Shown here: positions 23,017-46,381 of the stretch, piece by piece | Numbering within the stretch: position 1 is the first letter of the stretch | Layout: the number at the start of each line of letters is the position of its first letter | IMG/VR virus record: IMGVR_UViG_3300048591_000787 | Location: 1-49,994 of that record | Length of the DNA stretch: 49,994 bases | From: a virus | Strand: one strand, 5' to 3' | The notes under the pieces: generated by a model | Seen by the model: only the letters and a program-made list of their open reading frames with translations | Told to the model about the DNA's origin: nothing | Databases searched by the model: none | Position numbers and translations under genes: made by a program

Positions 23017-23023
23017 CCGTCAG

Positions 23024-24717: not shown

Positions 24718-24718
24718 C

Positions 24719-25468: not shown

Positions 25469-25475
25469 GGTACTG

Positions 25476-26198: not shown

Positions 26199-26241
26199 TT
26201 TATGCGTTATATAATAACTGTTCACTATTAGGAAACGGTAA

Positions 26242-26889: not shown

Positions 26890-26896
26890 GAGTCGT

Positions 26897-27409
26897 ATGG
26901 CGACAGCTTCATGGGAAGAAAAGGAAAAGCGAATTAAAGAACGTCATCCAGATGCCTTAGACGTGTCTTGGAGTCGAGCAATGCAAGTTGATCCTGATTT
27001 ATTCGCTCGTATTGTTGGAGATGTAGTTAAATCAACCGCATCAGGGGCAAGACCAGGGAAGCGTCCCAGTCTTGAACCAAATGATGCGTTTGCTGCTTAT
27101 TCAAAATTGGCCGGGCAGGATTTTTCTGACAAAGACTTTCATTCATCATTTCGGGCATTAACCCATGGACATTCCATCAGAGCCGTTTCGCGTAAAACAA
27201 GCCTAGCTCCTTCATATATCTTTAAGTTGTTAAATGATAAAGCCACTCCAAGCTATGAAACAATGGCTAAGATTGCGTCAGCGTTCAAAAAGGACCCTTC
27301 ATATTTTTTGGAATACAGAGTGGGTTTTGTATTATCTACAATAGATACGTTTCTTTGTGACAGCCCCGAGACAGCTTCAGCATGGTTTTTGAAGATGAAG
27401 GGGAAGTGA
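26897..27409 (+). CDS. HTH protein, candidate terminase small subunit, 170 aa
   Basis: ATG at 26897 follows AGGAG. The C-terminal half contains an XRE/Cro-type HTH (SIRAVSRKTSLAPSYIFKLL then SYETMAKIASAFKKDPSYF). Position next to the large terminase suggests the small subunit that recognises the phage DNA end, or a packaging regulator. Family match is not certain. Confidence 0.6.
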   Translation: MATASWEEKEKRIKERHPDALDVSWSRAMQVDPDLFARIVGDVVKSTASGARPGKRPSLEPNDAFAAYSKLAGQDFSDKDFHSSFRALTHGHSIRAVSRKTSLAPSYIFKLLNDKATPSYETMAKIASAFKKDPSYFLEYRVGFVLSTIDTFLCDSPETASAWFLKMKGK

Positions 27410-27417
27410 GATAGCGG

Positions 27418-29034: not shown

Positions 29035-29041
29035 GGGTTGG

Positions 29042-29356
29042 ATGTCCGAAAAATCTGCTAATGAGACGCTTTATGATACACTTTTTAAGTGGCGAGAAGA
29101 ATTAACTGGGTTTTTGAAGGAAATCTATCTATTTAATGATGCCGATGATCCGTTAAATGCCATGAAGAGACTTTCCGCTATGTCAGCTCGGGCCTCTTTT
29201 ATGCGCAGTGTGACTGTGCGCCAAACAAATCGACAACTTACAATCTTTCGGCAAGATGAACTAGATCCATTTCTTAAAGAAGTGGAACTTCAATTTCGCA
29301 TTTGGTCACGCATTGCGGCAATCACGAATGCTGAATGGGGTATGAGCCGGTATTAA
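29042..29356 (+). CDS. Hypothetical protein, 104 aa
   Basis: ATG at 29042. Helical (LYDTLFKWREELTGFLKEIY, NAMKRLSAMSARASFMRSVT). It lies between terminase and portal, a common place for small, poorly known head genes. Overlaps no other gene after the portal start is set at 29371. Confidence 0.6.
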   Translation: MSEKSANETLYDTLFKWREELTGFLKEIYLFNDADDPLNAMKRLSAMSARASFMRSVTVRQTNRQLTIFRQDELDPFLKEVELQFRIWSRIAAITNAEWGMSRY

Positions 29357-29370
29357 TTAGAGGTGGTACT

Positions 29371-30969: not shown

Positions 30970-31020
30970 GAAGCGTCTAATTTTGGCCTAGAGCGTCGTT
31001 TAGGTAATACGGAGGCCGCT

Positions 31021-31845
31021 ATGACTATTCTCTCAGCTTCGGATTCTTCCGATATCTTAACTGCGCCTGCGTGGTTGGTGGATGAAGATTATGACACTGC
31101 CTCAACTTGGGCGTCTAAGTATATCAAGACAAGCCCATACTTGAAGTGGATTGTCGGAAATTATGTTGAGGCCGATTCAGCAAATCGCAATAACCAATAT
31201 TGGACATTGGATGACTTAAAGCTCAGTCACGTTTCTGTTCACAATGCTCCAATGAGTTTGGCTCATGGCACCCATCCCATTGGCACATATGTTGCTTCAG
31301 AATTGATTTTCCCGATAGATGCGGCGCAACATCCATTTGTTGAGTCGCTGTCGACTATGTGGAAATATCGCTATCCAGACCAGTTCAAGTTGGTGGAAGA
31401 ATCTTTTCGCAATGGCACTTTGTATCAGTCGATGGAATGTGTTGCTGATTCAATAACCTGTGTTGGGACAGACGTTGCTTGCAATGAGACCTTTGAGTAT
31501 AAGGGGCCATTTAGCGACACCTATTGTGAGCACATCAAAAGTAGGGCAGCTTACCGTCAGTTCAACAACACATCATTTACAGGAGGGGCTTTAATCATCC
31601 CCCCAGATCGCCCTGGTTGGAAGGGGGCAGACATCAAAGAGGTCGCATCGCTCATCAACTCTGATGTTGCAGATGACATCTATGGTCAGGTTGCGGCTGA
31701 GTCTCCATCATTGAATTCCAGCCAATGGGAAAGCTTGATGCAAATGATTGTGTTGCATGGCGCCTCAAAGGCTGTCGATCAGACCACTTCCTCGACTGCT
31801 GGACGCCTAATAGGCATTCAAATGTCAGCAATGTTTTATTCATAA
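31021..31845 (+). CDS. Prohead/capsid maturation protease-like, 274 aa
   Basis: ATG follows CGGAGG. Patterns SANRNNQYWTLDDLK, APMSLAHGTHPIGTYVASE and GTLYQSMECVADSI resemble phage head maturation proteases, with a candidate catalytic His (in HGTH) and Ser (in QSMEC). It sits between portal and scaffold, where such proteases are found. Likely cleaves scaffold and capsid during maturation. Confidence 0.65.
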   Translation: MTILSASDSSDILTAPAWLVDEDYDTASTWASKYIKTSPYLKWIVGNYVEADSANRNNQYWTLDDLKLSHVSVHNAPMSLAHGTHPIGTYVASELIFPIDAAQHPFVESLSTMWKYRYPDQFKLVEESFRNGTLYQSMECVADSITCVGTDVACNETFEYKGPFSDTYCEHIKSRAAYRQFNNTSFTGGALIIPPDRPGWKGADIKEVASLINSDVADDIYGQVAAESPSLNSSQWESLMQMIVLHGASKAVDQTTSSTAGRLIGIQMSAMFYS

Positions 31846-31887
31846 TATAGCAATCCGTTATAGGTTGTGTGTCCGAAAGGTGTCTGT

Positions 31888-32586
31888 ATGAGTGATGCAC
31901 TTACGCCTAAGCAAATGCATGATCAACTACTTGCAGCAATGCCAGAGGGCTCAGCCCACGAAGAGGCAGAGTGCCCCTTCTGTAACGACGTTAGCTCCGT
32001 TGGAGGGGGTGACATGAAGACTTACACTGAGACTGAATTTACCGAGGCCGTACAAGAAGCTGTCGCTCCCGTAAAGGCTGCGGCTGACCAGGAAATTGCA
32101 CAGCTTAAGTCTGAATTGGACGAACTGCGTAACGCCCAGGAGGCCGAGGCCGCTCAGGGTGAGCTTGATGCGATTCGCACCCAGCTTGACGCCGCTGAAG
32201 CTCGTGCTTCTGAGGCTGAGGCTCGGGTGGCAGAGATTCTTGCATGGCTAGATACAGAGTCCGCTGCTGCGGAAGCTGCTGCTGTGCTAGAGACTCTAAA
32301 GACTGAGCGTCGTGCTGCCGTTGCGGAGTCCGCTTCATTCAGCGATGAGTATATCGACAGCAACATTGATCGTTGGGCTGCACTGTCTGATGAAGACTTT
32401 GCTGCTTTGGTTGAAGATTGGAAGGCTATTTCAGCCTCATCCAAAGCTTCAGTGGAGGGGGAGACTGGAACCAAGATTCCGGCCGAAACCGCCATGTCCC
32501 ATACCCGTGAAACCAACACAACCACTTCTGCCGCCTCCACTATTTGGGGTGCTGCTCGGCGTGGCGTTGACATTCGCAGTCTATAA
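31888..32586 (+). CDS. Scaffolding protein, 232 aa
   Basis: ATG 31888 preferred to 31867 (AAAGG upstream). It has a short Cys/His head (HEEAECPFC), a long Ala/Glu-rich coiled coil (QLKSELDELRNAQEAEAAQG, ARASEAEARVAEILAWL) and an Ala/Ser/Thr-rich C-terminus, typical of phage scaffolds. It would guide capsid assembly and be removed by the protease. Confidence 0.75.
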   Translation: MSDALTPKQMHDQLLAAMPEGSAHEEAECPFCNDVSSVGGGDMKTYTETEFTEAVQEAVAPVKAAADQEIAQLKSELDELRNAQEAEAAQGELDAIRTQLDAAEARASEAEARVAEILAWLDTESAAAEAAAVLETLKTERRAAVAESASFSDEYIDSNIDRWAALSDEDFAALVEDWKAISASSKASVEGETGTKIPAETAMSHTRETNTTTSAASTIWGAARRGVDIRSL

Positions 32587-32600
32587 AGGAGGATTGAAGA

Positions 32601-33110
32601 ATGTCTCGAAACTTTGAATTTCTCGTAGCGCCTCGTAGCGGTCATCGTGCAGGTCGTTATACCTGTGGTGCGGCTGTTCCGATTGGTGCTCCCGTGATGG
32701 TGGCTGGTGAGTCTGCTACTGTTGATGGCGCTCTTGCGGTTGAGGTGGTTGATGGTGCTACCGCCATTCCCACTGCTGGATGGGGCGGCATCTTGGTCTA
32801 CGAAGAGCTTTTCGTGGACTCAGCAGGAGAATCCCCCTCTGATGTCCTCAAGTGCCCCGCTGGCGCCATGGTACAGGTTGTGAATGGTACTGATGTCAAG
32901 GTGAAGTTCACCAACGACGCTGTTCTCACCATGGTTGATGAGACTGGTGCTACTCCTGGTGTTGTTGTGGGTGACTACCTGACTCCAATGTCGTCACCAG
33001 GCGATGCCGATGGCTACTGGGCCAAGACCGCAACTGCCGCAAATGCGTGGCTTGTCGTAACCGCTGTCGATCACTCTGCCGGTGTGGTAGAGGCTCGCGT
33101 CAACTTCTAA
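32601..33110 (+). CDS. Capsid decoration/head-stabilising protein, 169 aa
   Basis: ATG follows GGAGG. Beta-rich and Gly/Ala/Val-rich, no helices predicted (APVMVAGESATVDGALAVEV, VNGTDVKVKFTNDAVLTMV). Its place directly before the major capsid gene, and length, match decoration proteins of tailed phages. No cysteine-rich feature. Confidence 0.65.
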   Translation: MSRNFEFLVAPRSGHRAGRYTCGAAVPIGAPVMVAGESATVDGALAVEVVDGATAIPTAGWGGILVYEELFVDSAGESPSDVLKCPAGAMVQVVNGTDVKVKFTNDAVLTMVDETGATPGVVVGDYLTPMSSPGDADGYWAKTATAANAWLVVTAVDHSAGVVEARVNF

Positions 33111-33123
33111 GAAGGGACTTGCA

Positions 33124-34050
33124 ATGTCTACTACAGTACAAGATCCCGCCGAGATTCGTGAAGCCGCTCGTAGGCTGAATGAGGAAGCCAAGGCTAACTG
33201 GCATAATCCCCAGTGGCGTGCCGAGCGTGCGGCGGAGATGACCGAATCCATCTACGAGAACTTCCGCTATGAGAATATTCTCGACTACTTCGGGGCTGTT
33301 GAGTACCTCAACACCGAAGATCGGGCATATGTTCGTGAGACCCAGGGCCTGAAGGCTTACTGGATCGCTCGTGGTGGTTACATCGAGCAGAGCACTGTTC
33401 GCACTGATGTCGTGGAAATTCCTCGCGACACTGTTGGGTTCCATGTGTCTGAGTTTGAGGACAAGATGCTGACCGGCTTTGCCGAAGCTAGTTCCACCAT
33501 GGTTGATCTTGGGATTCAGCGCCTTGGTGCTGCTGTCAACCTTCGTGCCCTCAAGCTCTTCGAAGCCGCAATCCCGGCCAACAACTCCGGTAATTCAATC
33601 ACTGGCACTTCCATTTCTCTCGCTTCTGTTCATACAGCTCTTCGTGAGGTTCGTGACGAAACCCGCAGTGGTCAGGTTGCTATCCTCGGTCGAGCCACTG
33701 TTACCGAACAGTTGATGGACAGTCTGTTGGGTAACAGCTATAACGGCTCAGGGTTCTTGCCTGCCAGCAACGAAGAGATGGTTCGTCAGGGAAAGCTTGG
33801 CACATACCGTGGGGCTCCTGTCATCACTGTTCCCAACTACCTTGATGAAGATGGCAATTCATACTGGCCCGCTGGCGACCTGTGGGTGGTTGCCAACGAT
33901 GCTGCTAAGTTTGCTTTCTTCGGTGGGCTGAAGAGCAAGGAATTCACCGAGCAAGATAACTGGTACTGGCATTACCTTGCCAAGCAGGAGTTCGGTGGTC
34001 TTGTAAATCATCCTGAGCGTGCTTTCCGCATCACAGACACTAACGCCTGA
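33124..34050 (+). CDS. Major capsid protein, 308 aa
   Basis: ATG at 33124. The fold is suggested by an N-arm (DPAEIREAARRLNEEAKANW), a central FHVSEFEDKMLTGFAEASST, the A-domain-like VHTALREVRDETRSGQVAIL and RQGKLGTYRGAPVITVPNY, and a final FGGLVNHPERAFRIT. Followed directly by a strong terminator, fitting high-level expression. Confidence 0.85.
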   Translation: MSTTVQDPAEIREAARRLNEEAKANWHNPQWRAERAAEMTESIYENFRYENILDYFGAVEYLNTEDRAYVRETQGLKAYWIARGGYIEQSTVRTDVVEIPRDTVGFHVSEFEDKMLTGFAEASSTMVDLGIQRLGAAVNLRALKLFEAAIPANNSGNSITGTSISLASVHTALREVRDETRSGQVAILGRATVTEQLMDSLLGNSYNGSGFLPASNEEMVRQGKLGTYRGAPVITVPNYLDEDGNSYWPAGDLWVVANDAAKFAFFGGLKSKEFTEQDNWYWHYLAKQEFGGLVNHPERAFRITDTNA

Positions 34051-34071
34051 TATTAGCCCCTAAGCTAATCC

Positions 34072-34104
34072 AAGGGTCCGACTGGCATTGCTGGTCGGAC
34101 CTTT
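34072..34104 (+). terminator. Intrinsic terminator after the major capsid gene
   Basis: AAGGGTCCGAC (34072-34082) pairs with GTCGGACCTTT (34094-34104) with a single G-T wobble and an 11-base loop, followed by GTTGTT. Strong and well placed. Confidence 0.75.
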
Positions 34105-34165
34105 GTTGTTGGTTTCTTCATCAAGAAGTCGTGATATGATTATAGGATCGGACAAGGAGTTATTT

Positions 34166-34639
34166 ATGGCTGATTTCGAGACTTGGGAAAATGTTGCAAA
34201 GGGCCGTATCCAGATCTGGAAGATGGGCCGTCAGGGGCAGCCAGAGGCATTCGTCTTGCCCCCTGGTGGGAAGGTGACGTTGACACCAGAAGACCGTTTG
34301 TACAACCAGGATATTGCTTTGACAGAATTTGGTGATTTTTTTAGAAATGGAACACTTATGCCAGTGCGTCTTGTGGATACTGCTGTGGATTACGCAGAGG
34401 TAGCAGATAATCCCAATCACTTGGCGCAGTCTGATATCGAAGACCTGATCAAGGCTAAGGTTGCGGATCTTAGGGTTAAGCTGGCTGAGATCACTAATCC
34501 AGTAACGATGGCTCGCATCCATGAAATTGCTGACGAGATGGATCTTACCGCCTCCAAGCGTGCTGCTGTTGAAGAGCGATATGCGGAGTTGTGTGTTCCC
34601 AAGAACGAGGGCATCAGCGCCGGGGTAGAAGACTTCTGA
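34166..34639 (+). CDS. Head protein, hypothetical, 157 aa
   Basis: ATG at 34166 follows AAGGAG, making it the start rather than 34088. Sequence: a PPGGKVTLTPEDRLY segment then helical RLVDTAVDYAEVAD, a LIKAKVADLRVKLAEI helix and AVEERYAELCVPKN. Its role after MCP could be a connector or internal protein. No family recognised. Confidence 0.6.
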   Translation: MADFETWENVAKGRIQIWKMGRQGQPEAFVLPPGGKVTLTPEDRLYNQDIALTEFGDFFRNGTLMPVRLVDTAVDYAEVADNPNHLAQSDIEDLIKAKVADLRVKLAEITNPVTMARIHEIADEMDLTASKRAAVEERYAELCVPKNEGISAGVEDF

Positions 34640-34691
34640 TTTCACCTCATTTCTGGCCGTAGTAATCCTGTGATCTGCGCAGGAGGCTTGC

Positions 34692-35195
34692 ATGGCTAGT
34701 GTTGATATTACCGAGTTAATTCCTAGCCTTGAGGCTGCTTTAACTATTCCTGGGCAAACTTCTCCGTATAGCTCAGCAACAGAGTCTGAGTGGACATTAA
34801 AGCTTACCAATGCTTTTTGGCGCGCTGTTCTTGATGGGATTATCACAGGTTTCGTTATTGATGAGGATGGCATTATTGCACCTGAATCTGGGACAGAGAC
34901 GCTCTCTCGGTCATACCAGCAAATTGTTGTTATCTATGCTGCAATGAACATTGTTCAGAACACGCTACTCCAGCTTAAGACCACCTTTAGAGCCAAAGCT
35001 GGTCCTGTAGAGTATGAAACACAGCAAGCATCACAGGTTTTAACCACACTTCTCAAAACATATGAGAATGAAAAGAATCTGATTTTGTCACGGCTTAGTG
35101 ACGTAGGCAGTAGTGATGAGTCATATTATTACGATATGCCATGGGAGCGTCGTGATTCCCAACACAGTGGGCTTGCATATTGGGTAGGTAATTAA
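34692..35195 (+). CDS. Head-tail connector-like protein, 167 aa
   Basis: ATG at 34692 follows AGGAGG. It begins with helices (VDITELIPSLEAALTI), then SRSYQQIVVIYAAMNIVQNTLLQ, and a tail rich in Tyr/Asp (DESYYYDMPWERRD). Position after capsid matches adaptor (HK97 gp6-like) proteins; the family is inferred from order. Its stop overlaps the next start (TAATG). Confidence 0.6.
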   Translation: MASVDITELIPSLEAALTIPGQTSPYSSATESEWTLKLTNAFWRAVLDGIITGFVIDEDGIIAPESGTETLSRSYQQIVVIYAAMNIVQNTLLQLKTTFRAKAGPVEYETQQASQVLTTLLKTYENEKNLILSRLSDVGSSDESYYYDMPWERRDSQHSGLAYWVGN

Positions 35196-35656
35196 TGGGG
35201 GCTGTTACTAATCCAGCATTTGGAAGCGATTTTGATGGTGATGCTTTTCGTGCTGCCATAGTTTCTACTATGCAAATGGGGATGGCAAATGGGGACCAGG
35301 TTGCCACCTTCTATTGGGAAGAGGAGTATGAATATGAGTATGCAAGTGATGACCGCACTCCATATGACCTCTCAGCGACCCCTACAGAGGTCATACAGGC
35401 GCCTAAGACTGCGACAATCCCTGTAGCCGTTGAATTCGTTTCGCGGGCTACAGGAGGCCTAGGGGGGGCTGTGGGGCACATTGAGAACCCCAGGGTCGTA
35501 TTGACTGTTGTAGATACCTATATAAGCGACATTGCTGGAGCTACCGGGGTTATTTTTGACGATGCAAAGTATATGATTAACTATATGGCTCCCACTTTGG
35601 GACTGTTTGATGTAAATATTTACGAAATTCACTGTACAGCATTTGACGAGGCTTAA
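35195..35656 (+). CDS. Head-tail connector/neck protein, hypothetical, 153 aa
   Basis: TAATG overlap with the previous gene. The protein is beta-rich in its second half (TIPVAVEFVSRATGGLGG, RVVLTVVDTYISDI, FDVNIYEIHCTAF). Order adaptor, this gene, tail terminator matches neck proteins such as the stopper; not proven. Confidence 0.6.
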   Translation: MGAVTNPAFGSDFDGDAFRAAIVSTMQMGMANGDQVATFYWEEEYEYEYASDDRTPYDLSATPTEVIQAPKTATIPVAVEFVSRATGGLGGAVGHIENPRVVLTVVDTYISDIAGATGVIFDDAKYMINYMAPTLGLFDVNIYEIHCTAFDEA

Positions 35657-35657
35657 G

Positions 35658-36152
35658 ATGGATACCGGTCTAAATCTTCGTCTCTTAAATGACAACCTTT
35701 TGCTGTTAGTTGAAGAGTACCTGAACACCACTCAGGGTTGGAATGATCTTGGTAGGGCTAACCAACCAGTTACAATTCGTTCTACTGAGGTTGTAAATGA
35801 TGAAGTGGTTGAACCAAACCTTGTGACCGTATGCTTAGAAGACATCAACTTTGCGGATGTTGAACTTGGGTCAACAATGGTTGAGCAAAGTGTTGTTGCG
35901 GTCGTTGACATTATTGCCGAAAACCACTCCATTGGGCTTCATTTGGCGGGAGATTTGTTGGGCTGGGCTCAGGATCTATATGCATTTCCAGTATATGACC
36001 TTACTCAAGCAACACCTAATTCTGTTTTATTTTACTGTGAGATAGATGGCGTTACTTTAGAGCGCAATAGATGGTTTGAAAATCCCAGCCAACAGTGGTG
36101 GTGGGTGCTGTCTTTTTCCGTTGGCCGAAGTGCCTTTTCTGGAGATTTGTGA
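35658..36152 (+). CDS. Tail terminator-like protein, 164 aa
   Basis: ATG at 35658 (two bases past the previous stop), preferred over 35643. Begins MDTGLNLRLLNDNLLLLVEEY and ends QQWWWVLSFSVGRSAFSGD. Length and position between neck and tail genes fit a tail terminator. Overlaps the next start by TGATG. Confidence 0.6.
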   Translation: MDTGLNLRLLNDNLLLLVEEYLNTTQGWNDLGRANQPVTIRSTEVVNDEVVEPNLVTVCLEDINFADVELGSTMVEQSVVAVVDIIAENHSIGLHLAGDLLGWAQDLYAFPVYDLTQATPNSVLFYCEIDGVTLERNRWFENPSQQWWWVLSFSVGRSAFSGDL

Positions 36153-36505
36153 TGGATGCAAATAATCCACTAAAACAAAAGCTGGTTGTTCGGAGGGGAA
36201 TTTCTTTTACTGAAACAATTTTTTTGTTTGATAAAAACGATGAACCCATCATCCTTACGGGATACACGGGGCTGATGCAGGTGCGTTCTGATTATGGGGC
36301 CTCGGTTATTATTGAGCTGAGTACATCAAATGGGCGCATAACATTAGATAATAATTGCGTCTTGCTTTATATTGCAGACGAGGACACTGCTGATTTTACT
36401 GCTGGAAGTTATCGTTACGATTTACAACTTACAGATGCGGCAGGAGATGCTTATGCCATTCTTTATGGTACTTTTGCCGTTAAAGATATGGTTACGCAGG
36501 TATAA
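36152..36505 (+). CDS. BppU-like tail/baseplate domain protein, 117 aa
   Basis: TGATG start. The sequence VVRRGISFTETIFLFDKNDE, LTGYTGLMQVRSD, RITLDNNCVLLYIADEDT and AGSYRYDLQLTDAAGD follows the BppU N-terminal fold, which links receptor-binding proteins to the tail. No receptor-binding portion attached; probably docks other fibre proteins. Confidence 0.65.
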   Translation: MDANNPLKQKLVVRRGISFTETIFLFDKNDEPIILTGYTGLMQVRSDYGASVIIELSTSNGRITLDNNCVLLYIADEDTADFTAGSYRYDLQLTDAAGDAYAILYGTFAVKDMVTQV

Positions 36506-36514
36506 GGGGTTTCC

Positions 36515-36901
36515 ATGACCACACTAGACGAAATCAAGGTCGTTTTATCGGGATCTCAAGGCCCACAAGGGCCTCGTGGCGACTATCCCCAAGATCCTGT
36601 AGATGTTGCCTGCGACACGACTGTGACAGTTGATGCCACAGAGTCTTCTTACTTCCGCATTGAAGCCGATCAGGCGTTTACTTTAGAGGCCCCAACTGGA
36701 GGAGTGGACGGACAGCGAGTGTTGTTTGAAATCACCCAAGATGCAACTGGGGCGCGAGCAATGACCTTGGGGGCTGGGTTGGTGAATGGCCCCATTAGTG
36801 TTTCTTTATCTTCAGATCCAAATGCCGTTGATTTTCTAGGTATTGCATATCATGAACAGCGCGATGAATGGTTTGTTCTAGCGTTCTCGCGAGGTTATTG
36901 A
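36515..36901 (+). CDS. Tail protein with collagen-like start, 128 aa
   Basis: ATG at 36515. A short Gly-Pro-x segment (GSQGPQGPRGDYP) is followed by a beta domain (VTVDATESSYFRIEADQAFTL, GGVDGQRVLFEITQDATG). Short collagen-like runs often trimerise or shape fibres. Next gene is 55 bases away; no terminator seen. Confidence 0.65.
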   Translation: MTTLDEIKVVLSGSQGPQGPRGDYPQDPVDVACDTTVTVDATESSYFRIEADQAFTLEAPTGGVDGQRVLFEITQDATGARAMTLGAGLVNGPISVSLSSDPNAVDFLGIAYHEQRDEWFVLAFSRGY

Positions 36902-36955
36902 TTGCAACAAACTGTCGTCGTTATGTAAAGGCACTGCAACGCACTGGAGAACAAT

Positions 36956-37408
36956 ATGGCTTCCTTCTTGTACAATAACTTTAAAGAATATCTTTTAGAT
37001 GGCACTTGGAACCCGGCCGATGGGACGATTACTTGTGTACTAGCCGACTCGGCCACTGCTACCATTCCAGCACAGAATGCTGCTACTCCAGTATATAGCG
37101 ATCTTGCGAGTGCTGGGCTTGGCAAGAACTCCAGTGATGTTGTGGTTACTGCCACTTTAGGTACTCCTACATACACTGATGGTGTGCTAGATGCATCCAC
37201 AGATGCCAGTACATTTACTGCTGTAGATGGTGGCGGTGCTCGTGTGGATTCGTGTAACAGGATAGTGATCTATCAGGCTACGACCAACATCCTCATGGGA
37301 GTTATCGAACTTGGTTCTGCTGTTACATTTACTGGTGGGGACGTCATTGTTGATTGGGATGACACCACTTCCATGAATGGACAGACTGGTGGCGTGTTTG
37401 CCATCTAA
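36956..37408 (+). CDS. Tail/fibre protein, 150 aa
   Basis: ATG 36956. N-terminal FLYNNFKEYLLDGTWNPADG, then Asp/Thr-rich strands ending in GVIELGSAVTFTGGDVIV, DWDDTTSMNGQTGGVFAI. The C-terminal pattern T-G-G-x-hh-V-x-W-x-x-x-x-G-h-F-x-h is shared with the real end of the gene at 37607 and with 45729. Probably a shared phage tail fold. Confidence 0.6.
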   Translation: MASFLYNNFKEYLLDGTWNPADGTITCVLADSATATIPAQNAATPVYSDLASAGLGKNSSDVVVTATLGTPTYTDGVLDASTDASTFTAVDGGGARVDSCNRIVIYQATTNILMGVIELGSAVTFTGGDVIVDWDDTTSMNGQTGGVFAI

Positions 37409-37427
37409 ATAACATTGGATTATTCCT

Positions 37428-37610
37428 ATGTCATGGGCTATTCCCAACAAAGTTACGGCCAACTATCAAGAACAGGCTCGACTTATGGTGGCGTTGTTTA
37501 CTGAGTCGATTACAGGGGCTAATAAGAATGCTTCTGAATCCTACAACTCTGGGACGTGGGCTTCCAATGAAGTAGGTAGTCAAACTGCCGTTGACTGGGC
37601 CACGCTGTGA
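37428..37610 (+). CDS. Tail protein, N-terminal fragment-like, 60 aa
   Basis: Starts MSWAIPNKVTANYQEQARLM, matching the opening pattern of the two next proteins (IPNE..A.Y..QA). It then ends early (STGTWAS..VDWATL). It could be a full small protein or the remains of a resident fibre gene cut where the GC-rich block begins; its stop overlaps the next GTG (37607). Confidence 0.55.
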   Translation: MSWAIPNKVTANYQEQARLMVALFTESITGANKNASESYNSGTWASNEVGSQTAVDWATL

Positions 37611-38341
37611 GCTACACGATCCCCAACGAGGCAGATGCCCCCACCTACCCGGCTCAAGCGGAGCCGGACGCCGGAGACTTCCGCTCGCTCGGGCACGCCG
37701 CCTCGGGGTCGGGTGTGCTGTACGGGCTGCAAGTGGCGCCCGGCAACTCGGGGGTCGACCGGTCGGTGGTGATCGGGTACGGCCGTCTCGTGTATTTCGG
37801 GTGGGACCATGTCGCGCACCCGAAGACGACGATCGCATCCGGTGCGATCGTCGCTGATGGCACCCATCCTCGGTGGGCGCTGATCCACTCGACGGACTCT
37901 GGTCGGACGCTGACTGTGTCGTTGGGGACTGCCGCGGCTAACCCGGTGTTCCCCGCAGTCGCCGAGCTGGAGGTGGTGCTGGCAGCGATCTACCTCCCGG
38001 CCGCTGCGACATCGATCACTGCGGCGAACATCGTCGACAAGCGGGTGCTACAGACGGGGTCTCTGGTGTCCACAGCGACGTATCAGCCTCGGGCGCTCCC
38101 GCCATCTGCCCCGAAGCGGGCCTCGTACGCCCGATTTGGTGCCCCCGGATACGACGGCACCAACAATCTCGCGGCGAACACGGCCTACACGCTGTACGAC
38201 TCGTCGGACACCAACTATGGACCGGTGCGGCGGCCACATCTCAGCTCGTCGCTTACATCGACGGGCTCAGTATTACGCCTAACGGTGGGACCATCACCGT
38301 GGATTGGCACCCTAGCGGCATTTTCACATTGTGACGAGTGA
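37607..38341 (+). CDS. Tail-fibre protein with N-terminal attachment module; likely frameshifted C-terminus, 244 aa as read
   Basis: GTG 37607 overlaps the previous stop. First ~150 residues (IPNEADAPTYPAQAEPDAGDF, then GLQVAPGNSGVDRSVV, GTHPRWALIHSTD) match the start of the next protein, a probable tail-attachment module. From 38219 the reading becomes implausible (RRPHLSSSLTSTGS). Reading on in the -1 frame gives TGAAATSQLVAYIDGLSITP, NGGTITVDWHPSGIFTL and a TGA at 38332, resembling the C-termini of other tail proteins here. So one base (an A after TATGGA) seems lost, or a programmed shift occurs. Confidence 0.7.
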   Translation: MSYTIPNEADAPTYPAQAEPDAGDFRSLGHAASGSGVLYGLQVAPGNSGVDRSVVIGYGRLVYFGWDHVAHPKTTIASGAIVADGTHPRWALIHSTDSGRTLTVSLGTAAANPVFPAVAELEVVLAAIYLPAAATSITAANIVDKRVLQTGSLVSTATYQPRALPPSAPKRASYARFGAPGYDGTNNLAANTAYTLYDSSDTNYGPVRRPHLSSSLTSTGSVLRLTVGPSPWIGTLAAFSHCDE

Positions 38342-38359
38342 CGACGAGAGGATAAGTCG

Positions 38360-40207
38360 ATGACCGTGTTCACAGTGCCGAACGAGGCGTCTGCCACATA
38401 CGGGCCCCAAGCCGAATTAGACGCGCAGGATTTCGCAGCGTTGTCCTATGCGCTGTCCGGCTCGAGTGTGGTGGGTATCGGCTGTCAGGTGACTCCTGGG
38501 AACACCGGCGTGGACCGGTCACTTGTTGTGAGCGCCGGGCGGGTGTCGATCGGGGGGGCGGGTGCGGTCGAGATTTCTAAGACCACGTTCGCGTCCGGAT
38601 CGGTGACTGCAGATGGCACACATCCGCGGTGGGTGCTTGTCGTGTCTGACGGTACGACCGTGGCACTGAATGTGGGGACTGCCGCAGCGGCGCCCGTGTT
38701 TCCCACCATCACAGCGTTCACGGTGCTGCTCGCTGCCGTGTACGTCCCTGCCAACGCTGCTTCGATCACATCAGCGAACATCATCGACAAAACAGCGATG
38801 GCATCGTTGACTTGGCAGATGCCGGCCCAGGCTCGTGTTCCTGCACGCCAAACGTCCGCAACGTTCCGGCGTGGCACGTTCGCAGCTCACGGCCCGCCAG
38901 GATCGAACGGTGCCGTGCTCACGAATGGCGTGGAATCGACACTTTTCGATTCAGGTGACACGGCCAAGGGCGGGTTCAGTGGCCTCACATCCTCGCCCGG
39001 CCAGGTGAAGCGTATAGCGCTATTCGTGCTGACATCCGGGGCGAACGACGAATGGACCGCCATCGAACTCCCCCGGCTGAAGATCTACTACGACGGGAAC
39101 ACGACGGCTGATATTGATATGCCGCTTCGCCGGTGGTGCGGGACGACAGGCCTGACTTCGACCGATGTGGTCCCGGATGTCCGGCACCCACTGTGGACGG
39201 TGTACAGCAAGAACGACAGTGGGTTTGGGGGCCGGTTGCTCTCGTTCACCCTGCACCTGCCGATCCCTTTCTCCACGCGCTGCAAGGTGACCTTTACCCC
39301 GATCACGGGAGTTGACCCACTCATGTGCTGGTCGTTGGTCGATTACGTCGTTGGCGACAGCGAAGGGTTCGGGGATCGCAAACTGCGTACCATCTGGTGG
39401 GATCACGGTTCCGAGTCATCTTCGGGGGACCGCGCCGGGACGAACGACACGACGGGTCGCAACGATCAGACAGAGGTGTCCGTCGGTGAATATCACTGGT
39501 GGGATTCCGGGTGGGGGTCCCGTTTGTATGGCTCGCTCACAAGTGGTGCTACGACGGTTGAGGTCTACAACGGCCCCGCGTTCACGCGCAACCTGCCCGT
39601 CGGCGTGAAAGATCCGCGGACGGGCACGGCGATCACAAACACGACGACGGCGCTCGCCCCCGATTGCTACGCCATGATCGACTCCGAGGTCGTGAAGATC
39701 ACTGCAATCTCGGGTAACACTCTGACGGTCCAACGGGGCCAGACTCATCCGATTACGGGTGCGGCCACGACGGCGACATCTCACGCCGATCAGGCGATGC
39801 TGAAGCGGATCGTCGGGCCAACCAAGGTTGAGCTGTGGCAACTCGGCCTCTCATCTGTCGGATCTACCGCGTCGTTCATGGAGGGTCCGATCGGCCTGTT
39901 TTGCGACGCGGATTCGGCGCCCCTTTCCGGTGGGCAGCTCCCGACGCTTGGGTCTGGTGGTACCGAAGACTTCTTTGGGGTCGGCTGGTACGCTCTTTCG
40001 GCCAACAACGCGTCCGATACGGGTAACCCCGAGCACGGATGCCACCATCAGAGACCGTGGACCGCCTGCTTCTACCGATGGTTCAACCGTGTGTGGGCTG
40101 ACGATTGCCTAGCACTAACGTCCCAGAACGGCGAGTCGGGGCAAGGGTCAGGCCCCCCGGGGTCCACGTATACGGGCTCCACGTTGTGGGTCTACACGCC
40201 TCACTGA
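38360..40207 (+). CDS. Tail-fibre protein with DUF2961/GH172-like glycoside hydrolase domain, 615 aa
   Basis: N-terminal ~155 residues repeat the attachment module of the preceding gene (VPNEASATYGPQAELDAQDF, QVTPGNTGVDRSLVV). Residues ~200-300 and ~490-600 resemble DUF2961/GH172: LKIYYDGNTTADIDMPL, LSFTLHLPIPFSTRCKVTF, SFMEGPIGLFCD, GGTEDFFGVGWYAL and a late PWTACFYRWF. Glu508 and Glu536 are candidate catalytic residues. A beta domain (about 395-480, IDSEVVKITAISGNTLTVQRG in part) is inserted. Some GH172 enzymes cleave D-arabinofuranosides of the mycobacterial wall. A wall-polysaccharide depolymerase on the tail is a strong hypothesis. Confidence 0.65.
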   Translation: MTVFTVPNEASATYGPQAELDAQDFAALSYALSGSSVVGIGCQVTPGNTGVDRSLVVSAGRVSIGGAGAVEISKTTFASGSVTADGTHPRWVLVVSDGTTVALNVGTAAAAPVFPTITAFTVLLAAVYVPANAASITSANIIDKTAMASLTWQMPAQARVPARQTSATFRRGTFAAHGPPGSNGAVLTNGVESTLFDSGDTAKGGFSGLTSSPGQVKRIALFVLTSGANDEWTAIELPRLKIYYDGNTTADIDMPLRRWCGTTGLTSTDVVPDVRHPLWTVYSKNDSGFGGRLLSFTLHLPIPFSTRCKVTFTPITGVDPLMCWSLVDYVVGDSEGFGDRKLRTIWWDHGSESSSGDRAGTNDTTGRNDQTEVSVGEYHWWDSGWGSRLYGSLTSGATTVEVYNGPAFTRNLPVGVKDPRTGTAITNTTTALAPDCYAMIDSEVVKITAISGNTLTVQRGQTHPITGAATTATSHADQAMLKRIVGPTKVELWQLGLSSVGSTASFMEGPIGLFCDADSAPLSGGQLPTLGSGGTEDFFGVGWYALSANNASDTGNPEHGCHHQRPWTACFYRWFNRVWADDCLALTSQNGESGQGSGPPGSTYTGSTLWVYTPH

Positions 40208-40219
40208 AAGGATCATCCC

Positions 40220-40690
40220 TTGGCAGCGATCAGCTACACGACACCGGGCACGCCATCCACAATACTGTCGTCGGCGTCGACCGGCCTGGCGAACAACGCC
40301 TACGCCGGGTCCGGGACTGCGTCCGTGACCGTCACGGCGTCCAACAACAAAACAACTCCGAAGCTGTTCGGCTGGTTCGAATTGTACGTGCACGACTTTG
40401 GGGGGACCCCCACCGACGGCGGATTTGTGACGCTGTTCCTCGCCACGTCCAACGATGGCACGACGTACGCTGACGGGCACGACGGATCTGTGGCGCCAGC
40501 GCTGGAACTGGCCGTGGGCACGTTCACGCTCCGTAACGTTGACGCGCCGCAGCGGCTGCATTTGTGGAACATTCCGCTACCGCCATTGCACTTCAAGCCG
40601 GTGTTGCTGAATAAGGCGGGCCAAACTCTAGTCGGGAATGGGACAGCCACCACGCTAGCCGTGGCGACTTACGACTATCAGGTGATCTAG
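40220..40690 (+). CDS. Tail/fibre accessory protein, 156 aa
   Basis: TTG at 40220 follows AAGGA. Ser/Thr/Ala-rich and beta-rich: STILSSASTGLANNAYAGSG, KLFGWFELYVHDFGGTP, GTTYADGHDGSVAPALELAV. Ends in a TAGTG overlap with the giant gene. It could form a capping or coat layer of the fibre; function unknown. Confidence 0.6.
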   Translation: MAAISYTTPGTPSTILSSASTGLANNAYAGSGTASVTVTASNNKTTPKLFGWFELYVHDFGGTPTDGGFVTLFLATSNDGTTYADGHDGSVAPALELAVGTFTLRNVDAPQRLHLWNIPLPPLHFKPVLLNKAGQTLVGNGTATTLAVATYDYQVI

Positions 40691-43600
40691 TGCTGCTGGA
40701 CCCGTCTAGGCGGTATGTCTCGCCGGGGGTGCTTCTCCGGCCCGACTGGGCCTCCAGTCTTACCGCCGATCTGGTCTTTGCGCTCGTCGGTAAGCGCGAG
40801 CTACTGACTGGCGCGTGTCTACTTCCGGCGCCTAACTCGCCAGGTCGCACAGCCGACCGCAATTTGGGGTACCCGCAGCACAGGGGCCACGTCATCGCCG
40901 ACGGTACGTCATCCCCGGCAACGACCAATTCGGGGTGGTTCCTGCCGGGGTATATGCGCGGCACGACGCTGAGTACTACCCCGTTCCGGCGACTTGCCGG
41001 GTCGACCGACTACACCGTGTTCGTGTCTGCGCGGTTTGGGACCGCCGCCAGTTACGGCAAAGTGCTGTCGTTCTGGCACGACCAATCAGACACGTCGGCG
41101 CAGCCTTACGTGACATTCTCCCTAGGTTCCGGCGGCTCCAATCTGGGCGACTTTGAACATAGTTGGTCTGACACGACGGGCAATATCCAGTCGTCGTATT
41201 CCCCATGGGGGACCCCGATCGTATGGGACCAAGGTGTACGGGCGGACACGACCTACGCCTTCACGCGATCATCTGGCACTTTCAAGTGGTTCCGTAACGG
41301 CGTCCAATTCGGGGCGGACATTACTGGGCAGTCCACGACCCCGGTGGGGTTTCGTGCGCTGACAGAGAACCCCGCCATCGGCATCCGCTCGCCTAATGCG
41401 GGCAGTGAGATGGTGTCGGGCGAGATGCCGGTAATTCTCGTGTGGAATCGGGTACTAACACCCGCCGAGATCCAGAGACTACACATCGACCCGCTGGCAT
41501 TCGTGGACACGCGGCCGCGGTTCCTTGGCCAGAATATGGCCGGGGTGCCGGTGACCATTTCGCCTAGTCTGTTCGTCAGCGCCACGGCCACATTCCCGAC
41601 GCCGGTGGTTCGTTTTGGCGGTTTCGCCGCGCCGTTCACTGTGCGTGTCTCGGCCGTGCGCGGCGGTCATCGGCTGCGCGGGGAGGGGTCCACCCCCGCG
41701 ACCCCTTCAGCGTTCACCTCGACCGCAACCTTCCCGACACCGACCGTCGCGCAGACCGTCACCCCCGCGGCGTTCGCGAACGGGTCGAGTTTCCCGACAC
41801 CGACTGTCGCGCAGACGATCACCCCCGCGGCGTTCACCTCGACCGCAACCTTCCCGACACCGACCGTCGCGCAGACGATCACCCCCGCGGCGTTCGCGAA
41901 CGGGTCGAGTTTCCCGACACCGACCGTGACCGTCGCGGGAGACACGTCGGTCGGCGTGTGGGAGATGCTGCCCATCCGCACCGAAGCCGAGCGTGCGGGC
42001 GGTGTGATCGGCGGTGAAGGGAAGCAGCATCCCCGCTCGATCGCTGTCGCACCATCCGACTCGGATGTCATCTGGCTTACCCATGACATCGGCGGTGTGT
42101 GGCGGTCCGCTGACGCCGGACGGTCATGGCAGAAGTGCCCGTGTCGGGGCATGCCGTTGTTGGCGATGGCGTCGATCGCTGTCGACCCGACCGACCCTGA
42201 CATCGCCCTCGTCATAGCGAACCACACCGTGCAGACACTCATGCCCGACAACCTCCAGGGCATCTATCGCACCGTCGACGGTGGCGACACATGGGCGCTG
42301 GTGCAGGCCACGATCGCTGACGCCGCCCAGTCGGAGACAGGCACCGGGTTCTCGCGCGAGGCCCAGTCGAACATCATCTGGGCAGACAGCAAGTGGTGGG
42401 CGTTCATCGACGGCTCCTCCGGTACGGTCTGGTCGTCGACGAACGGCACCTCTTGGACGGAACACACGGCGACGGGTATCACGGGCTGGGGGAACGTGTA
42501 CACGGTCGTGCCCGGGAGCACGAACGAGCTGCTTGTCGCGACCGGTGGCGGGCTGAAGAAGTGGAACACGTCCACCACCTCCTTTTCGTCTGTGGCCTCC
42601 CCGGGCGGGTCGCTGTGCTTGTGGATCGCTCGCGACCCGAACACTGCGGGCCGCTATTGGGTGGTGAAAGCCGCCGGGGAGAACAACTCGATCAACTCCG
42701 CGGTGTACCGCACTGACGATTACGGGTCGTCCTGGTCCTCTGCGGTGACGACCGCTCACGGCACAGGCACCCGATCCGTGCACGCGATCGATACCGGGAC
42801 GTCCACACGGCTCCTTACCCTCGCGAACGACGACGTGACCGGATCGGCTAAGTACGCCAGATGGTCTGACGATGTTGGTTCGACGTCGCCGACGTGGACG
42901 CAATGTAATGTGCGGGGTCGTCTCGGGACGGTCGAGGGCGACTTCGGAAAAGGCTGGCTGCTGTCCGGCGGCGCTGCTGCCACGTCGCATCCCGGGTCGG
43001 CGGTGTTCACCGGTACGACAGGCGTAGCGTTTTCTGAGGCAACGATCCTCCGCTCGACGGACGGCGGGAAATCATGGCGCTGGTCTGCTACCGGCTGGGG
43101 TGGGATGGCAGGCACCGGCTACGCCGGATCTGGTCTGCACTTCGACGGTGACACCGTGTCGCTCATGTTGCAGGACACCGGGTGGATCCGCTCAACGGAT
43201 GGCGGGGCGTCGTGGCGCGAGTATGACAAGCCTGCGGCCACTTACGGCGGAGCGAATCTGTACTCGGCGCTGTTCGATTCGGTGGGGGTGGTCGCAACCT
43301 CCGGCGAGAACTCAAAGGGTGTGTTCCGTCAGACGTGGACCACCGAGCCGGATGAGAACGCCTGGGTGGACATCACTCCAGGGTCGACCGCCCGCAACTA
43401 CCACCATCTGACGTTGCGAGGCGGCAGATGGTTCGTCGGCGGGTTCCGCACCCCGACAGCCGGGAAGACGTCGGCGACGTTGACGTCTGGTGACTGGTCG
43501 GGGATGCCCGTCGGCAGCTCCCCCTACTACGGGGAGCTGGTCGACTCGACCGACACCGAATTGTGGGCGCTTCGCACCTACGACGCGGGGACGGAACCGG

Positions 43601-45729
43601 CCACCCTGTACCGCAAGGTGTGGTGCACGACGACGATGGACGGCTCGACGTGGTCTGCTGCTTCTGCTTTCAACGTGATCGAGCGTGACGCCTACTTCCG
43701 GTCCCGGCCGGTGTTCGCCGCCACCGGAGCGTCCACGTTCATCGCTCCCTGCAACCGTGCGGGTGATTCGGGGAGCCTTCCCGCCGATCTCGGCGTCTAC
43801 ACGTTCACCGGTTCCGCTGGGGCGATCACCCCAACTACCCGACTCGGAGTCATCGAGGCGTTCGAGGCGGACAATGGCGCTCTGCCGTGGAACTACCCGA
43901 CGTACATCGCGATCGATCCCTCTGACACGGACGTGATCTATGTGGCGTTCGACGCCGTGAACGTCGACGTCATCTACCGCTCCGTGAACGGCGGGGCGTC
44001 ATGGGAGAATGTGTCGTCCGGATACCCGATCGGCGCGGTGCGAATGATGCGGGTGCACCCCGACACCGGCGATCTGTGGGTGTCAGGGATGCACGGCAAC
44101 TGGATCCTCCCCGGTCCGGTACCGGTCGGGTCGCTCACCGAGGCATCCACCGTGTCCGGCCCGGTGACGGTCGGCTACGCCGATGTGATCGACCAGCCCA
44201 CCGTGCTGCAAACCGCGTCCTCTCAGGGGGGTGTGAGCCCGGCGGCGATCACTCTGACGGACACGACGGTAGGGTCAACGCTGATCGCTGTGGTGCGGGC
44301 GTCGTCGACGGTGACGGTCGGTGCCCCGGCGGGGTGGACGGAGGGCGGGGCGTACTCCCCATCGAACCCTCAGCTCAAAGTGTTCTACCGGACCGCTACC
44401 GGAGACGGCTCCGACAACTTCTCGGCGACGCTGTCGGGTGCCGGGCAGTGGAACGTGCAGGTGATCGAAGCGACCGGGATCGCCGCCGCACCTTCCGACA
44501 CGGAGAACTCCACATCGTCCGGTGAAGTCGCATCCCCGGTGGATGTGACCAGGGCGGGCACCACTTCCGCCGGACTGGTCGTGATCGCAGCCGCCACGAA
44601 CGTCGGCAGCAACCCGACGATGGAAGGGTGTGCCGTCTCTGCCCTCGACGGCAACGGAGTTTACGGGCTCGCCTCCCAGGCCGGGATGGGGTCAGCGGTC
44701 TACTCGATGGTCGCCTACCGGGTGCAGACCGATGCCGTCGGCGCAGGCGAGGTGTCGGCCCGTCTGTCGTGGACGAACGCGGACACTTACCAGGTGAACG
44801 CGATGGCGTTGATCTGGCCGTTGTCGTCGGCCCCGGTTCAGGCAACCGTTCTTGCTAACGTCAATGTGTTTGGCTCCGCAACTGTACATCAAGCGATGCC
44901 AGCAAGTTCCACTACATCCATCAATACATTTGGTATACTCGCCGTTCATCAAATTGTTGATGTTGTTGCCATTACGCCTACAAATGCATTAGGGACCGTT
45001 GATTCTCATCAAGATGTGTCTGTCAACGCATTAGTCAATGCAACGTCATTTGGTTCTGTAATCGTCAACCAAACAATCCCGATTACAGTAATTACTTCGG
45101 ACGTTACCATTCCCATCCCAACAGTAGATGGTACTATTGTTCGCAGTGCAGATGCCATTACACATTCTAATACTCTAGGAGTACCAACTGTTCACCAAAC
45201 CGTGGAGATAACGGCTGTTACATCATCTGGTGCCTTCGGTGTTGCAAGCATTGGACAGATCATTGCAACAGATGGCGTTATTGCATCCCACACCCTTCCA
45301 GAGCCCATCGTTCATCAACAGGTATCGGTTGTTGGTGTTGTCAATAGCACTGTGTTTGGTACACATGATCTAGACGTGTCTGGGGTAGTTGAACCAACCG
45401 GGGTGGCAAATACTAATACTGTTGGCACTCCTACAATCCATCAAACTGTTCCGGTGATGGGCTTGGATAATGAGAATACTGTTGGGGCTCCTGCCTTTAA
45501 TCAGCAGATTTCCGTTACAGGAACATCTTCCAGCAATACATTTGGGACTGCAATCATTGGCCTAGGGGTAAGTGTTATTGGGGGGCCTTCCGTAAATGCC
45601 ATAGGAACAGTTCTGATTCACCAATCATTGCCGATTGGTGGGGTGGTTGGAAGTAATGTGTTTGGACTTCCCTATATTCCTGATGACCAAACAGAAAACT
45701 TCTTTTTCTTCTTCTTGGCAGGGTACTAA
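40690..45729 (+). CDS. Giant chimeric tail protein: LamG-like + Asp-box propeller + carbohydrate-binding-like + repeats, 1679 aa
   Basis: Residues ~1-275 look like a LamG/concanavalin-like domain (ADTTYAFTRSSGTFKWFRNG, VLVWNRVLTPAEIQRL without the first V). ~338-417 are 20-aa repeats (TPAAFANGSSFPTPTVAQTI). ~437-1150 hold many Asp-box (BNR) motifs such as SADAGRSW, TVDGGDTW, STDGGKSW, STDGGASW, SVNGGASW, i.e. a sialidase-like beta-propeller. ~1174-1380 is another beta domain (VGAPAGWTEGG, VFYRTATGDGSDNF). ~1384-1667 is about 14 repeats near 20 aa (NTFGT..VHQTV) and the end is FFFFFLAGY. Base composition turns from GC-rich to AT-rich near residue 1383. Confidence 0.75.
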   Translation: MLLDPSRRYVSPGVLLRPDWASSLTADLVFALVGKRELLTGACLLPAPNSPGRTADRNLGYPQHRGHVIADGTSSPATTNSGWFLPGYMRGTTLSTTPFRRLAGSTDYTVFVSARFGTAASYGKVLSFWHDQSDTSAQPYVTFSLGSGGSNLGDFEHSWSDTTGNIQSSYSPWGTPIVWDQGVRADTTYAFTRSSGTFKWFRNGVQFGADITGQSTTPVGFRALTENPAIGIRSPNAGSEMVSGEMPVILVWNRVLTPAEIQRLHIDPLAFVDTRPRFLGQNMAGVPVTISPSLFVSATATFPTPVVRFGGFAAPFTVRVSAVRGGHRLRGEGSTPATPSAFTSTATFPTPTVAQTVTPAAFANGSSFPTPTVAQTITPAAFTSTATFPTPTVAQTITPAAFANGSSFPTPTVTVAGDTSVGVWEMLPIRTEAERAGGVIGGEGKQHPRSIAVAPSDSDVIWLTHDIGGVWRSADAGRSWQKCPCRGMPLLAMASIAVDPTDPDIALVIANHTVQTLMPDNLQGIYRTVDGGDTWALVQATIADAAQSETGTGFSREAQSNIIWADSKWWAFIDGSSGTVWSSTNGTSWTEHTATGITGWGNVYTVVPGSTNELLVATGGGLKKWNTSTTSFSSVASPGGSLCLWIARDPNTAGRYWVVKAAGENNSINSAVYRTDDYGSSWSSAVTTAHGTGTRSVHAIDTGTSTRLLTLANDDVTGSAKYARWSDDVGSTSPTWTQCNVRGRLGTVEGDFGKGWLLSGGAAATSHPGSAVFTGTTGVAFSEATILRSTDGGKSWRWSATGWGGMAGTGYAGSGLHFDGDTVSLMLQDTGWIRSTDGGASWREYDKPAATYGGANLYSALFDSVGVVATSGENSKGVFRQTWTTEPDENAWVDITPGSTARNYHHLTLRGGRWFVGGFRTPTAGKTSATLTSGDWSGMPVGSSPYYGELVDSTDTELWALRTYDAGTEPATLYRKVWCTTTMDGSTWSAASAFNVIERDAYFRSRPVFAATGASTFIAPCNRAGDSGSLPADLGVYTFTGSAGAITPTTRLGVIEAFEADNGALPWNYPTYIAIDPSDTDVIYVAFDAVNVDVIYRSVNGGASWENVSSGYPIGAVRMMRVHPDTGDLWVSGMHGNWILPGPVPVGSLTEASTVSGPVTVGYADVIDQPTVLQTASSQGGVSPAAITLTDTTVGSTLIAVVRASSTVTVGAPAGWTEGGAYSPSNPQLKVFYRTATGDGSDNFSATLSGAGQWNVQVIEATGIAAAPSDTENSTSSGEVASPVDVTRAGTTSAGLVVIAAATNVGSNPTMEGCAVSALDGNGVYGLASQAGMGSAVYSMVAYRVQTDAVGAGEVSARLSWTNADTYQVNAMALIWPLSSAPVQATVLANVNVFGSATVHQAMPASSTTSINTFGILAVHQIVDVVAITPTNALGTVDSHQDVSVNALVNATSFGSVIVNQTIPITVITSDVTIPIPTVDGTIVRSADAITHSNTLGVPTVHQTVEITAVTSSGAFGVASIGQIIATDGVIASHTLPEPIVHQQVSVVGVVNSTVFGTHDLDVSGVVEPTGVANTNTVGTPTIHQTVPVMGLDNENTVGAPAFNQQISVTGTSSSNTFGTAIIGLGVSVIGGPSVNAIGTVLIHQSLPIGGVVGSNVFGLPYIPDDQTENFFFFFLAGY
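41701..41940 (+). repeat. Four 60-bp direct repeats in an A-B-A-B order
   Basis: Four consecutive 60-base units (41701, 41761, 41821, 41881) share TTCCCGACACCGAC and flanks; units 1 and 3 (CGTTCACCTCGACCGCAACC) alternate with 2 and 4 (CGTTCGCGAACGGGTCGAGT). Together they form two near-identical 120-bp blocks that encode the 20-aa repeats. Confidence 0.9.
44839..45690 (+). repeat. AT-rich 20-aa coding repeats (about 14 copies)
   Basis: Degenerate ~60-bp units encode the pattern N-T-h-G-x-x-x-h-H-Q-x-h (examples INTFGILAVHQIV, NTVGTPTIHQTV, NTFGTAIIGLGV). They resemble the GC-rich repeats upstream (FPTPTVAQTI) at protein level but not in base composition. Confidence 0.7.
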
Positions 45730-46142
45730 TGGCAAATCACGTTTATCCAAATGGGAAAAAGTACCTAATTGATAATGCAGATGTATGGGGCAGTGATGAT
45801 TGCTGCTTATCGCTGATGACTTCTGGATACACATATAGTCGCACACATACCTCTATGAGTCCAGTAGTTGGACACCGTTTGACAAATGGTAAATCTGGCA
45901 TCCTGCAAAATACTGTTGTGACATACGACGAGAACAATGATCGTTGCATCTTTGAGTCAGATGAAATTGAGATTTCTGGTGTATCTAGTGGACAAACCAT
46001 TATATCTGTAGTGTTGCACACCTATCATGCATCTGATCCAGCACAAGAAGTGCCTCTTGCCTTCTTTGATGGGTTCAACATCACTACAGATGGTGGTAAT
46101 ATTACAGTAACATGTCCGAATAATGAATGGTTTTATATCTGA
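45729..46142 (+). CDS. Tail protein, 137 aa
   Basis: TAATG overlap with the giant gene. Its sequence CLSLMTSGYTYSRTHTS, EISGVSSGQTIISVVLH and GFNITTDGGNITVTCP, NNEWFYI parallels the 36956 protein in the order of strands. AT-rich like the resident genes, so the foreign block ends before it. Function: virion/tail. Confidence 0.6.
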   Translation: MANHVYPNGKKYLIDNADVWGSDDCCLSLMTSGYTYSRTHTSMSPVVGHRLTNGKSGILQNTVVTYDENNDRCIFESDEIEISGVSSGQTIISVVLHTYHASDPAQEVPLAFFDGFNITTDGGNITVTCPNNEWFYI

Positions 46143-46381
46143 TGAGCGCCTCACATATTGTGGCAAAGCGTCGTGACCGTTGTTTGGCGACCATCCTTTC
46201 ATTCAAAGAGGATGAGGTTGATGAATACTTGGATCGGGAACTATCCAACGATCTACGTAAAGTCATACTCGATTCGGTCAATGATGTATGTAGCTTGGCA
46301 ATAGATTTGCTTGATGATGCAAGTATTGTCAACGAAACCTTCTTTGAACGATTAGAAGATTTGTTCAATGGCGAGAGTTAA
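46142..46381 (+). CDS. Hypothetical helical protein, 79 aa
   Basis: ATG at 46142 overlaps the previous stop (TGATG) and is preferred over 46127. Acidic helical (ILSFKEDEVDEYLDRELSND, LRKVILDSVNDVCSLAIDLL). Its end overlaps the next start by 14 bases. Possibly a small tail assembly protein. Confidence 0.55.
   Translation: MSASHIVAKRRDRCLATILSFKEDEVDEYLDRELSNDLRKVILDSVNDVCSLAIDLLDDASIVNETFFERLEDLFNGES

Follow-up and report, generated by a model that had tools for sequence, protein, structure and literature searches.

A sharply bounded GC-rich tail-fibre block with a GH172-type domain, probably imported into an AT-richer phage genome

The IMG/VR virus record IMGVR_UViG_3300048591_000787 was analysed in full, and this whole stretch of 49,994 bases, classed as linear and without end repeats, is referred to here as the window. 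From approximately 37,595 to 44,836 it contains a 7.2-kb block of mostly fibre-type genes with a guanine-plus-cytosine (GC) content of 64.3%, against 45.2% outside the block. We consider it highly probable that the block is a host-recognition cassette that an uncultivated phage of 45% GC recently acquired, in its variable fibre slot, from a tailed phage of high GC. This reading draws on direct observations, namely the step in composition, the existence of the slot, a left-edge gene order that is the canonical one, the fusion in frame at the right edge, and the domain content of the encoded proteins. One of these, P0002, carries a domain of the family GH172/DUF2961. We lean towards the further proposal that a tailed phage built this domain, known from cells and related to the double jelly-roll fold of capsids, into a fibre as a trimeric glycan-cutting tip, and that the fibre set has lately passed between phages that differ widely in base composition. 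The block and its edges comprise the following features.

37,583-37,610: left compositional edge; changepoint 37,595 (range 37,583-37,604), GC at third codon positions (GC3) rising from 0.39 to 0.74, difference in log likelihood (delta lnL) 91.
37,607-38,341, plus strand: P0001, anchored fibre protein of 244 amino acids, GC3 0.76; phrog_20556 (baseplate), expect value (E) 2.9e-06.
38,360-40,207, plus strand: P0002, 615 amino acids; anchor at residues 1-150 and GH172/DUF2961 domain at about 165-615, with catalytic-type residues E508, E536 and D537.
40,220-40,690, plus strand: P0003, 156 amino acids, GC3 0.78.
40,690-45,729, plus strand: P0004, chimeric fibre of 1679 amino acids, made up of a LamG-like lectin, GC-rich 20-residue repeats, a Sortilin/VPS10-BNR propeller, a segment without family match, and AT-rich repeats after codon ~1382.
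44,830-44,848: right compositional edge, in frame, at the onset of the AT-rich repeats; changepoint 44,836, GC3 falling from 0.82 to 0.35, delta lnL 107.
44,842-45,726, plus strand: AT-rich C-terminal repeat segment of P0004, in units of ~20 residues.

Windowed GC is 62-67% over approximately 37.6-44.8 kb and about 40-50% on both sides, while GC3 is 0.78 in the block and 0.42 elsewhere. Gene by gene, GC3 is 0.73-0.80 within the block and 0.33-0.45 in the immediate flank genes. For 7-kb windows outside the block, GC has a mean of 0.447 (standard deviation 0.018) and a maximum of 0.489. The two edges are the largest 300-bp GC steps of the window (0.25 and 0.24, with the third at 0.16). The maximum 4-kb GC deviation is 0.19 for the window, 0.07 without the block, and 0.02-0.06 across eight contigs that are relatives or serve for comparison; the highest of these values (0.064, in the AT-rich relative G001) sits at that contig's own fibre gene. 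The edges were located by maximum-likelihood GC3 changepoint, with 2-log-unit ranges, and the left changepoint lies within ~25 bases of a GTGA stop/start overlap at 37,607-37,610. An initial annotation, made from the sequence alone, had described a compositional step at both edges, beginning at the GTGA junction and ending at ‘codon ~1383 of 1679’ of one gene. Windowed GC, GC3 changepoints and 300-bp steps bear out the step at both ends, and the coordinates were all right, with the codon now placed at ~1382. The sharply bounded GC-rich block is thus confirmed.

The codon usage of the block resembles that of high-GC genomes, with a correlation (r) of 0.95 with the phage Caudovirales GX15bay, 0.94 with the contig L012, and 0.92-0.94 with several high-GC contigs, but of only 0.21 with its own flanks. 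The flanks instead correlate with AT-rich relatives (0.89 with L003, 0.88 with L002). As the block has the composition of a settled high-GC genome, the import is likely to be recent.

The position of the block was assessed by comparison with relatives found through terminase searches. These gave three IMG/VR contigs, L002/G001 (41% GC), L003/G002 (45.5%) and L004/G003 (56%), and one phage record, GX15bay (L005, MK557849, from mangrove soil), all keeping the gene order of the window from the terminase on into the head and tail genes. GX15bay is the nearest phage-record relative of the backbone, with a terminase 42% identical and collinear head and tail genes, but it differs from the window in being 63% GC throughout and in having no genes in the slot. 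There, the homologues of window genes 35,643-36,152 and 46,127-46,381 adjoin each other, which leaves some 10 kb of the window without a counterpart. In G001 the equivalent interval holds a single collagen-like (GPTGP-repeat) fibre gene of 1395 amino acids with GC3 0.31 (reverse complement 12373-16560), and in G002 it holds a fibre-like gene of at least 780 amino acids with GC3 0.40 that runs off the contig. The interval between the two core tail genes is a variable fibre slot. The genes that flank the block within and beside this slot are as follows.

36,095-36,505, plus strand: phrog_1084 gene (E 1.6e-20), L-shaped fibre assembly-like, native and AT-rich, opening the slot; a homologue lies at the equivalent place in G001.
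36,515-36,901, plus strand: 128-residue protein with a collagen-like GPQGPRG stretch, AT-rich flank.
36,956-37,408, plus strand: phrog_644 protein (E 7.7e-07), AT-rich flank.
37,428-37,610, plus strand: AT-rich anchor-like stub of 60 residues (MSWAIPNK...), sharing the GTGA overlap with the first start of the block.
45,729-46,142, plus strand: second phrog_644 protein (E 2.9e-10), AT-rich flank.
46,127-46,381, plus strand: core tail gene closing the slot; homologue at GX15bay 32559-32882 and an 89-residue gene at the equivalent place in G001.

At the left edge, the gene order runs across the change in composition. P0001 and P0002 have in common a 150-residue N-terminal anchor, which is also found in eight IMG/VR contigs (L010-L017, 56-69% GC), joined to varied C-termini, and in two contigs of Alphaproteobacteria metagenome-assembled genomes (MAGs). 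A hidden Markov model (HMM) of the anchor scores 14.0 bits on the 60-residue stub, its highest match after P0001 and P0002, against 7.7 for the best of 999 shuffles. A phrog_644 gene stands directly upstream of the anchor gene in L016, L019 and L020, and no more than two genes away in L012. The AT-rich phrog_644 gene and anchor stub of the window match this order, which indicates that the GC-rich side continues a gene order begun on the AT-rich side. The two phrog_644 genes that flank the block show minimal pairwise similarity and so are not recent duplicates.

The right edge falls inside P0004, whose open reading frame (ORF) stays open across it. The AT-rich repeats beyond the edge are close in period and motif to the GC-rich repeats at 41.7-41.9 kb (Tandem Repeats Finder period 60 at 41,731-41,927), and the two sets align locally with a score of 92, reached by none of 1000 shuffles (mean 39, standard deviation 6.9). 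The edge appears to coincide with a domain boundary of P0004, as read from the sequence; a homologue search found none. The initial annotation had proposed that the block was joined at repeat-encoding DNA. This is true of the right edge, which has similar repeats before and after it, but not of the left, which is the end of a truncated anchor-like ORF with a stop/start overlap and no repeat. Insertion between direct repeats was also considered and rejected, the edges sharing only a 7-bp match at about chance level.

The domain content of the block is of fibre type. The propeller region of P0004 matches Sortilin/VPS10 (PF15902) with E 1e-14 and 54.7 bits against a cut-off of 33, and its LamG-like region matches PF13385 with E 7e-05, below the cut-off. 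The claim that all block genes encode fibre-like or depolymerase-like proteins was essentially right, given the anchors, the GH172 domain and the LamG/VPS10 propeller, with the exception of P0003, for which family searches gave no match.

P0002 matches PF11175 (DUF2961) with E 8e-08 and 32.5-34.1 bits, over the curated cut-off of 27; this family has been renamed GH172 (PMC8605356, PMC10115798). An HMM was also built from six cellular GH172 proteins, taken from the eight family holders among 398 genomes of the phylum of one of the Alphaproteobacteria MAGs. Its match to P0002 comprises two stretches, in the expected order, with E 1.9e-6 (best of 999 shuffles 2.9), and both halves of the putative double jelly-roll align. 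The acid/base E270, the nucleophile E291, and D292 and W298 of the characterised enzyme BBDE_2040 (catalytic residues from PMC8605356) align with E508, E536, D537 and W543 of P0002. From this sequence evidence, P0002 is most likely a glycan-trimming fibre with a putative furanosidic substrate. An extra segment within its GH172 part was tried as a phage virion module and set aside as weak, its score being reached by 44 of 1000 shuffles.

Characterised GH172 proteins are exo-alpha-D-arabinofuranosidases or alpha-fructofuranosidases, some of them active on mycobacterial arabinogalactan (PMC8605356, PMC10115798). A 2022 survey reported DUF2961 from every cellular domain ‘but not viruses’, with no link to proviruses (PMC8812541). 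We found no paper linking GH172 with phage tails in the literature searched, and scans of IMG/VR with two GH172 alignments gave no viral relative. Cellular GH172 did match three fecal ‘Bacteriophage sp.’ records flagged UNVERIFIED (MT835583.1, MT836379.1 and MT838830.1; L031-L033). These were rejected as viral GH172, as their ORFs seem unlike those of phages and two of the records resemble Bacteroidetes polysaccharide-utilisation loci, judged by eye and with no family search. The three records seem to be mislabelled as phage.

Composition, codon usage, the synteny of the slot and the fibre-type domains give good support to the initial interpretation of the block as a horizontally acquired host-recognition cassette. 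Some results do weigh against our account. No donor was found at the DNA level and, beyond the anchor, there was no protein-level donor match for P0002 or P0004; the scans covered IMG/VR, GTDB contigs and phage records by exact peptides or single-sequence BLAST, which can miss distant relatives. In the phage records the two large block proteins had no match at E<=1e-5. For P0002 in particular, W267, which is part of the -1/+1 subsite of the reference GH172, is not kept, and a serine lies three residues before E508 in the sequence alignment. W267 is not a family-defining residue. Its absence from P0002 suggests that activity and substrate may differ. The AlphaFold model of P0002 reached a predicted local distance difference test (pLDDT) score of only 37 and was not used. 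As to the donor, the initial annotation had suggested high-GC actinophages and a BLAST of the block against other phages. That origin is unsupported: no phage record matches at the DNA level, there is no actinophage among the phage-record matches, and the closest anchor homologues are in high-GC uncultivated viral contigs and the two Alphaproteobacteria MAG contigs.

A further point against import is that the junctions are seen in one record only, with no independent copy. Together with the very sharp edges, this also speaks for an assembly chimera, in which 7.2 kb from a high-GC phage unrelated to this one would have been wrongly joined into a metagenomic contig. However, such a chimera needs two independent misjoins, both in the fibre slot of the relatives and both correctly oriented. 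One of them must leave the 1679-residue ORF open with like repeats on both sides, and the other must create the GTGA stop/start overlap behind a stub that itself belongs to the anchor family. The need for two precise, slot-matched joins makes misassembly improbable. The two edge regions also have no stretch of more than 7 bp in common, which gives no indication of an assembly loop via a single shared k-mer. On balance, we regard a chimera as unlikely.

The composition step could also be read without any misjoin. If a high-GC phage already carrying the fibre block had received the AT-rich replication and structural genome, the same step would be seen, as composition alone gives no direction. 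We consider this reversal very unlikely, since the flanks form a coherent module, syntenic with the AT-rich G001 and G002 over the terminase, head and tail genes and sharing their codon usage, whereas the block makes up the smaller part of the sequence. A high content of Ala, Gly, Pro and Thr in fibre proteins raises GC at codon positions 1 and 2, and this counts for a model without transfer, in which amino-acid composition or local selection would have made the fibre genes GC-rich where they stand. The shift is nevertheless strongest at third positions, where GC falls from 0.82 to 0.35 in the space of ~10 codons, inside a single gene and between similar repeats; amino-acid content is therefore not the chief cause. 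The codon choice, moreover, fits high-GC genomes, and the fibre genes in the same slot of G001 and G002 have a low GC3. Change in place is thus the least credible of these alternatives, and we give it almost no weight.

For the import itself, donor fibre genes would have been joined by illegitimate or short-similarity recombination, on the left after the native anchor stub and on the right in frame to a native repeat-bearing fibre tail. P0001 and P0002 would then attach to the tail tip via their common anchor. The GH172-type glycosidase of P0002 may trim a furanosidic surface glycan, and the lectin and VPS10/BNR propeller of P0004 could serve to bind a polymer at the surface and possibly to cut it.

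Exchanges of tail-fibre modules are as a rule deduced from mosaics that are old and have lost their outlines. In the window, each of the two joins is located to ~20 bases and one of them is a fusion in frame within a gene, which makes the event and its consequence for host choice directly testable. No earlier case of a virus-borne GH172 came up in the literature searched, and one within a virion-type protein would thus be the first there; the absence of DUF2961 from viruses was used in a 2022 argument on the origin of double jelly-roll capsids (PMC8812541). Work from 2023 describes mycobacterial arabinan cut by GH172 enzymes (PMC10115798), and the domain of P0002 therefore hints at a glycan that the host of the donor may display.

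Some further observations concern the relatives and the rest of the window. In G001 (reverse complement 20789-38067), an ORF of at least 5759 amino acids extends as far as the end of the contig and probably encodes a giant tape-measure protein, whose counterpart lies beyond the end of the window. The large terminase genes of L003 (7196-9862) and L004 (8540-12190) are split into separated matches, suggesting inteins or introns, with breaks near residues 139-156 in both and also near 450 in L004. At GX15bay 22403-27130, the homologues of window 29,335-30,969 (labelled PhoH in the record) and 31,021-31,845 are each split by ~1 kb, suggesting insertions. The window itself encodes a class II ribonucleotide reductase with an intein and HNH endonuclease at 14,864-18,184 (Intein_splicing E 5e-14, HNH_3 E 2e-09). 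It also carries a CAC/CACCAG repeat tract at 10,067-10,126, within the ORF 9,544-10,383 for an amidase with a peptidoglycan-binding domain.

The anchored fibre proteins of L010-L017, with their phrog_20556-like N-terminus, share the anchor of P0001 and P0002, and the gene order of the window recurs in L016 (phrog_644 just upstream of the anchor gene) and L012 (two genes upstream or adjacent). They differ in their C-termini, none of which matches the GH172 part of P0002, P0003 or P0004. With the characterised GH172 enzymes (BBDE_2040, PMC8605356; those of D. gadei and Nocardia, PMC10115798), P0002 shares the PF11175 match, both halves in order, both glutamates, the Asp and the equivalent of Trp298. 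Unlike them, it is a fibre protein from a phage, has an anchor at its N-terminus as well as a large insertion, and lacks W267. The closest parallel for the exchange as a whole is the receptor-binding block of the Alteromonas phages A5, V22 and P24, which was exchanged between unrelated tailed phages and is syntenic in the structural region (PMC10579305). That module is homologous in several phages and its binding was tested, whereas for the window no donor was found and the evidence is an unameliorated composition step, including an in-frame junction within one gene. The GH172 fibre is the new element, fibre-module mosaicism itself being already known. In short, a mosaic host-recognition module is a known kind of element, and the one described here is unusually fresh and sharply bounded.

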